From assembly GCA_021809545.1 (NCBI GenBank), contig JAKAYL010000014.1, positions 1 to 37,418 on the forward strand: a stretch of DNA of 37,418 bases, written 5' to 3'. The first letter of the stretch is position 1. The number at the start of each line of letters is the position of its first letter. Shown here in pieces: positions 37,233 through 37,338 of the stretch. This DNA is from Thermoplasmata archaeon. Lineage in GTDB: Archaea; Thermoplasmatota; Thermoplasmata; Lutacidiplasmatales; UBA184. The translations under genes and the position numbers were made by a program. The notes under the pieces are model-generated. The model was not told the origin of the DNA. It saw nothing but the letters and a program-made list of their open reading frames with translations, and made no database searches.

Positions 37233-37338
37233 CGGGCCTGTGGGGAATCTCGGCGGTGGTCCCACGGGACCGCCGTATTCGAACCCCAGTTCGCCGGCTT
37301 AGAAGGCCGGTGCATTATCCGGGCTATGCTACAGGCCC
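37233..37338 (-). tRNA. tRNA-Arg (anticodon UCU), interrupted by a T-loop intron
   Basis: GGGCCTG/CAGGCCC acceptor, GCAT/ATGC D stem, AGCCCGGATA D loop (A14, GG18-19, A21), CCGGC-CTTCTAA-GCCGG anticodon arm, TGGGG/CCCCA T stem, T loop TTCGAAT after removing 31 nt; discriminator G, no encoded CCA. Confidence 0.93.
37247..37277 (-). other. 31-nt tRNA intron at non-canonical position 59/60 (T-loop)
   Basis: Central helix TTCG/CGAG, 3-nt bulges AAT and ATT, internal stem with GGTCC-CGTG-GGACC; cutting after the second nt of each bulge leaves TTCGAA + T. Confidence 0.87.

Follow-up and report, generated by a model that had tools for sequence, protein, structure and literature searches.

A predicted T-loop intron in the sole tRNA-Arg(UCU) gene found in a Thermoplasmatota genome, and introns at the same site across the phylum

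The sole tRNA-Arg(UCU) gene found in the genome of this Thermoplasmata archaeon very probably carries an archaeal bulge-helix-bulge (BHB) intron at position 59/60, in the T loop, that is removed by an alpha'2-type splicing endonuclease (EndA) and the ligase RtcB. The gene lies near the end of the stretch of DNA analysed here, 37,418 nucleotides of one contig, which we call the window. Of all tRNA introns found in the window's genome, T-loop introns at 59/60 are the most numerous, and they also occur throughout its family and in much of the phylum. The initial annotation had called such an intron unusual for Thermoplasmatota: its presence in that phylum stood, but the idea of a lone exception did not. 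Excision of the 31 nt in the cell, the cleavage sites, the specificity of the enzyme and the route of spread are what we infer from sequence.

Anatomy of the interrupted gene

The gene was delimited by direct reading, by its fold and by R1, a covariance model of tRNA with a T-loop intron built from a gapless alignment of equal-length constructs; the R1 match scored 71.4 bits (E 4.3e-14). A plain MAFFT alignment of mixed isotypes was dropped, as it left the D arms and the 3' ends out of register. The features are the following.

37233-37338 (-): tRNA-Arg(UCU) gene with T-loop intron; 5' end at 37338, discriminator G at 37233
37301-37303 (-): anticodon TCT (UCU, Arg, codon AGA), in the loop CTTCTAA of a 5-bp stem
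37284-37288 (-): 5' strand of the T stem, TGGGG, pairing 5/5 with CCCCA at 37241-37245
37278-37283 (-): exon part of the T loop, TTCGAA (54-59), whose TTCG is the 5' strand of the BHB central helix
37247-37277 (-): 31-nt intron; predicted cleavage after A59 (37278) and before T60 (37246)
37277-37279 (-): 5' bulge, A58 A59 I1 (AAT), from direct reading and the BHB fold
37253-37276 (-): inner hairpin ACGGCGGTCC-CGTG-GGACCACCGC, from reading, fold and covariation of the inner helix
37249-37252 (-): 3' strand of the central helix, CGAG, complementary to TTCG 54-57; supported by pairing at 54, 55 and 56 across 163 introns
37246-37248 (-): 3' bulge, I-2 I-1 T60 (ATT), from reading; T60 is invariant (163/163)
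37234-37245 (-): 3' strands of the T stem (CCCCA) and of the acceptor stem (CAGGCCC), the latter pairing 7/7 with GGGCCTG at 37332-37338
35263-37188 (-): gyrB (DNA gyrase subunit B; NCBIfam TIGR01059, 974 bits)

Read directly from 37338 to 37233 on the minus strand, the gene runs GGGCCTG-TA-GCAT-AGCCCGGATA-ATGC-A-CCGGC-CTTCTAA-GCCGG-CGAAC-TGGGG-TTCGAA[31 nt]T-CCCCA-CAGGCCC-G. The tRNA is complete and every stem is paired, including all seven pairs of the acceptor and all five of the T stem. Its next gene downstream, gyrB on the same strand, is a mere neighbour outside the intron system.

The reading bore out to the base the earlier claim of a 31-nt T-loop intron at 59/60, together with its proposed structure: a TTCG/CGAG central helix with one G-U pair, the bulges AAT and ATT, and a GGTCC-CGTG-GGACC hairpin with two A/C mismatches in the inner helix. 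With its exon, the intron thus makes a strict BHB, in which a full 4-bp central helix lies between two 3-nt bulges. The bounds of the intron rest on direct reading, on a register test over 163 introns and on an intronless orthologue reading TTCGAAT-CCCC. The cleavage geometry predicted from the BHB, which would leave the 7-nt T loop TTCGAAT, holds under the reading, the register test and the fold energy. Removal of the intron leaves a standard tRNA with all stems and this T loop, as in the intronless orthologues. For the isolated T arm the BHB fold has an energy of -22.1 kcal/mol against a minimum of -22.4, a cost of 0.3 kcal/mol, and the fold computed for the whole pre-tRNA is a cloverleaf to which one hairpin is added (z = -2.2).

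A default tRNA scan had been expected to miss or mis-type the gene, and this was indeed the case. ARAGORN reported no tRNA in the window; the Rfam model RF00005 matched 37265-37338 with only 34.9 bits, recognising the 5' two thirds of the tRNA but completing it with the wrong 3' half, in which the intron hairpin served as T arm and acceptor.

Structure of the introns and the splicing enzyme

To compare structures we used 163 distinct introns, mostly from the family of the window's genome (f1), in a register set by the splice sites and not fitted. In the central helix, 98, 100 and 99% of them are paired at 54, 55 and 56, respectively. Pair 57 is A.G in 61%, G-C in 26% and A-T in 7%, and only 33% are standard, so that in this set the central helix is often three base pairs and a mismatch. 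The base opposite position 57 tracks it, being C in 43 of the introns with G57 and G in 99 of those with A57. There is a preference for A.G beside the cleaved bulge (L149 is an example); the base opposite A57 is mostly G and not U. The inner helix forms in 79-96% per position, with a mean of 87.3% against 53.8 +/- 1.1% for shuffled partners, and the value falls when the register is slid. T60 never varies, and the pattern TTCRAA[intron]T occurs in 162 of the 163. Within the intron the conserved letters are G-A-R ahead of the last two, which are the partners of the invariant TTC. A family outside the class (f28) supplied a separate set of 48 introns, 100, 100, 98 and 83% of which have the respective four central pairs.

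These properties are consistent with the following mechanism. In the precursor, CGAG at the 3' end of the intron would pair with TTCG of the T loop, producing a central helix between two 3-nt bulges; the single alpha'2-type endonuclease would cleave each bulge behind its second nucleotide, and ligation of the two halves by RtcB would restore TTCGAAT, a T loop of the usual 7 nt. Since T54-T55-C56 hardly differs from one tRNA to another, any intron whose last letters are G-A-R-N-N should make a strict BHB, whichever T loop it interrupts. At 37/38 the exon partner would be the anticodon region, which varies between tRNAs, whereas in the T loop it would be the TTC shared by all; such a universal partner could explain why one site is used in many isotypes, why the geometry is strict and why a broad-specificity loop is lacking.

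Both enzymes are encoded in the genome. Typing of the splicing endonuclease, which had been proposed as a check, identified one alpha'2-type fusion gene. EndA, the sole endonuclease gene in the genome, lies on contig C37 and encodes 365 aa with two PF01974 domains in one ORF. Its catalytic Tyr, His and Lys are found in the C-terminal unit only, and the motif FRAY-H-VKK/VRK is conserved in the C half of 29 homologues and absent from their N half. The layout, judged by sequence, is alpha'2: a single gene, two fused units and a C-terminal triad. The lysine-bearing loop known as CSL or ASL is absent from EndA, which aligns without gaps to the Archaeoglobus fulgidus and M. jannaschii EndA across that region, and no insertion at the CSL/ASL site was seen in any of the 29 homologues. 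Nor does the protein show the epsilon2-type (ARMAN) layout of three units with the catalytic one in the middle, since it has two units and the catalytic one is C-terminal. RtcB is encoded on contig C58 (E 7.7e-167). Alpha'2 enzymes have been called narrow, acting on canonical BHBs only, while non-canonical introns have been tied to CSL/ASL enzymes (PMC4033280, PMC6379350, PMC12397907); the specificity of the EndA studied here is probably narrow as well. Its best PDB match is the Methanopyrus kandleri enzyme 5X89, which has been described as constrained broad (PMC6379350).

Introns in other tRNA genes and other genomes

The 59/60 intron is found in eight tRNA genes of the window's genome: Arg-UCU, Arg-CCG, Asn, Ala, Gly, Asp, Gln and Lys. 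Six of these, Asn(GUU), Ala(GGC), Gly(UCC), Asp(GUC), Gln(CUG) and Arg(CCG), were weak tRNA matches that we read as interrupted in the T loop, and Lys(UUU), on contig C57, was added by R1. T-loop introns are twice as many as the canonical introns readable by eye in this genome, of which there are four (Met, Tyr, Leu-UAA and Trp). The tRNA-Lys(UUU) gene L234 (G000:C57:16900-17140 (-)) has two non-canonical introns, of which the one interrupting the D loop measures about 30 nt and the one in the T loop about 34 nt, and this double arrangement is retained in genomes of f1 and f2. The tRNA-Trp gene L033 (G000:C15:9203-9369), 167 nt long, has a long and possibly double intron in the anticodon region.

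Ten other genomes of f1 and f2 carry 3-11 genes each with a T-loop intron, as judged by R1 and sequence reading, with Arg-UCG, His, Glu and Ser as further isotypes. The tRNA-His and tRNA-Arg(UCG) genes are intact in the window's genome and interrupted in relatives; therefore, the set of interrupted tRNAs turns over. When R1 was run over 390 Thermoplasmatota genomes, 120 had a match at E <= 3e-10, some of the weak ones possibly intronless: intronless tRNAs reach an R1 E of about 1.6e-10 to 2e-9, and the f19 matches near 2-3e-10 may be of this kind. Families were counted as verified only where sequences were read. Reading confirmed T-loop introns in f1-f5, f8, f9, f16, f23, f25, f28, f42 and f51, and the verified cases thus span at least a dozen Thermoplasmatota families. 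Those introns of the confirmed families that were parsed by script measure 15-49 nt, and the site is 59/60 in every one. The tRNA-Lys(UUU) of an f28 genome (L330/L389, G213:C59:9937-10025) has a T-loop intron of 15 nt with hardly any inner helix.

We looked for shared intron sequence between tRNA genes. The eight introns of the window's genome have no mutual similarity above shuffles (best score 10, null 95% = 11); shared ancestry of these eight by sequence was rejected for want of signal over shuffles, and any copying in this genome would therefore be old. In f28, seven genomes have the hairpin GCARCTTG-n-CAAGYTGC at nine places in all, each of them within a T-loop intron; the tRNAs are those for Cys, His, Lys, Gln, Arg and Val, and a further f28 genome has the hairpin in a tRNA for Gly. 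The best local score across isotypes in f28 was 27, whereas shuffles reached at most 14 and random hairpins at most 18. The recurrence of this hairpin points to copying between tRNA genes, a pattern that has been called intron transposition in Thermoproteales (PMC4033280, PMC4090602).

On balance we favor the view that T-loop introns are mobile throughout the phylum and, using T54-T55-C56 as a half splice site, have spread without a broad-specificity EndA. A universal TTC half-site could have allowed the same site to be colonised in many tRNA genes across Thermoplasmatota with no such enzyme. The introns might instead be selected as guards that break the T-arm attachment site of tRNA-targeting integrases, and so not be neutral passengers. 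The T arm is a common core of tRNA integrase attachment sites. All T-loop introns sit in that one place, and integration has been proposed before as a pressure that leads to disrupted tRNA genes (cited in PMC3293823). We regard selection as guards as unlikely, however, since a TTC half-site shared by all tRNAs accounts for the position just as well with no selection at work; moreover, the proposal bears on why the introns persist and not on what they are.

Orthologues, copy number and comparison with known systems

A blast search over 60 relatives gave a tRNA-Arg(UCU) match in most of them, and nearly every orthologue in f1, which we take to be Lutacidiplasmatales, has an insert of about 28-40 nt at the same place. 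Lutacidiplasmatales are acid-soil archaea (PMC9287336); the work cited used tRNAscan-SE, and the word "intron" is absent from its main text. A pattern scan of GTDB genomes gave 80 readable named loci, among them Thermoplasmata archaea, UBA184 and Candidatus Lutacidiplasma silvani, and 76 of the loci were complete UCU genes. In 72 of these 76 there is an insertion of 29-39 nt at the same phosphate; the four without it are two Thermoplasmata and two Woesearchaeota. This conservation, together with BHB pairing above that of shuffled introns, excludes chance.

A comparison with sister genomes had been suggested; the orthologues in the g3 genomes read TTCGAAT-CCCC, exactly without the insert and with no scar. 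As g3 is nested inside f1 with good support in the EndA tree, the intron was most likely lost in g3. Other arrangements were seen in relatives. The tRNA-Arg(UCU) genes L086 and L102, of genomes G041 and G053, have both an anticodon-loop and a T-loop intron, and G053 has an additional copy (L072) without either; the tRNA-Arg(UCU) of an f3 genome (L093, G038:C33) is apparently interrupted in the D and T loops.

These comparisons also bear on whether the insert stays, as a permanent extension of the T loop (an expansion hairpin) in a working tRNA. The hairpin is stable on its own and removal is read from sequence, both of which would suit such an extension. Even so, we consider it very improbable: positions 54-56, which dock with the D loop in standard tRNAs, would remain paired with the insert in 98-100% of cases; the hairpin sequence drifts freely, whereas the insertion point, both bulges of 3 nt and T60 stay constant, as for a splice substrate; orthologues of the same family lack the insert precisely; and insert sizes vary, from 15-18 nt in some to 47-49 nt in others.

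The initial annotation had named an intact second tRNA-Arg(UCU) gene, together with a lack of splicing, as evidence against its reading. No such second gene was found by tRNA model searches and blast over the whole genome (1.96 Mb, 83 contigs, 98.98% complete), and there was no second UCU gene among its 38 tRNA matches at E <= 10. Apart from the gene, blast returned only a match of 47 bases where contig C6 begins. Bases 1-127 of C6 are identical to window positions 37292-37418, a shared stretch that ends inside the tRNA, after position 47; the gene sits 80 nt from the contig end. A second copy on C6 was thus rejected, its first 127 bases being the end of the window's contig and read as an assembly overlap, such as an assembly with k = 127 would leave. 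The branch between C6 and the window inside the tRNA may mark strain variation at this gene. AGA makes up 4/9940 codons in the window's genes, and tRNA-Arg(UCU) is therefore needed. That the gene is a disrupted pseudogene with an intact tRNA-Arg(UCU) elsewhere is hardly credible, for although an 83-contig assembly could miss a gene and this one lies at a contig end, the only other DNA match is the contig overlap, every stem is fully paired, almost all relatives have the interrupted form and no other, and seven more tRNAs of the genome are interrupted alike.

A spliced T-loop intron thus remains our preferred reading, and its kind and position are known, since non-canonical BHB introns at 59/60 have been found in Crenarchaeota, Thaumarchaeota and others (reviewed in PMC4090602). 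One model of tRNAscan-SE 2.0 was trained on introns of Crenarchaeota and Euryarchaeota, and the new non-canonical cases reported with that program are mostly from Crenarchaeota and Thaumarchaeota (PMC8450103). We found no description of T-loop introns in Thermoplasmatota in the freely accessible papers searched; the lineage, the scale and the pairing with this enzyme appear to be unreported. Reviews tie introns of the 59/60 type to (alpha-beta)2 or epsilon2 enzymes (PMC4090602, PMC4033280, PMC6379350) and link the multiplication of introns away from 37/38 to broad specificity gained via the CSL or ASL loop. In the present case the phylum is euryarchaeal, its alpha'2 enzyme has neither CSL nor ASL, and T-loop introns interrupt a single phosphate in as many as a dozen or so tRNA genes of one genome. 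If the half-site reading is true, the accepted link of non-canonical introns to CSL/ASL-type enzymes is broken, and the account of intron spread and enzyme co-evolution would change. The complementarity of the intron end to a sequence present in every tRNA would provide a simple explanation, testable in vitro. In addition, because standard tRNA searches miss or truncate genes with T-loop introns, the tRNA sets of Thermoplasmatota and claims of missing tRNAs need rechecking.

Compared with the alpha'2 enzymes of Archaeoglobus fulgidus (2GJW) and Thermoplasma acidophilum (2OHC), EndA has the same one-gene plan of a pseudo-catalytic N-terminal and a catalytic C-terminal unit with no CSL/ASL, but it is longer, at about 350-365 aa against 289-305, and, unlike them, would have to cleave many T-loop substrates. 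With the transposed introns of Thermoproteales (PMC4033280, PMC4090602) the present ones share, in f28, the occurrence of similar introns in unrelated tRNA genes; they differ in the phylum, in an endonuclease without CSL and in the use of one insertion site, and no such similarity was detected among the eight introns of the window's genome. Finally, like the known 59/60 introns (PMC4090602), they are short, lie at the same position, form a BHB from exon and intron together and can occur in genes with more than one intron, whereas those described here belong to Thermoplasmatota, use just one site across many isotypes, have a strict BHB and occur alongside an alpha'2 enzyme.
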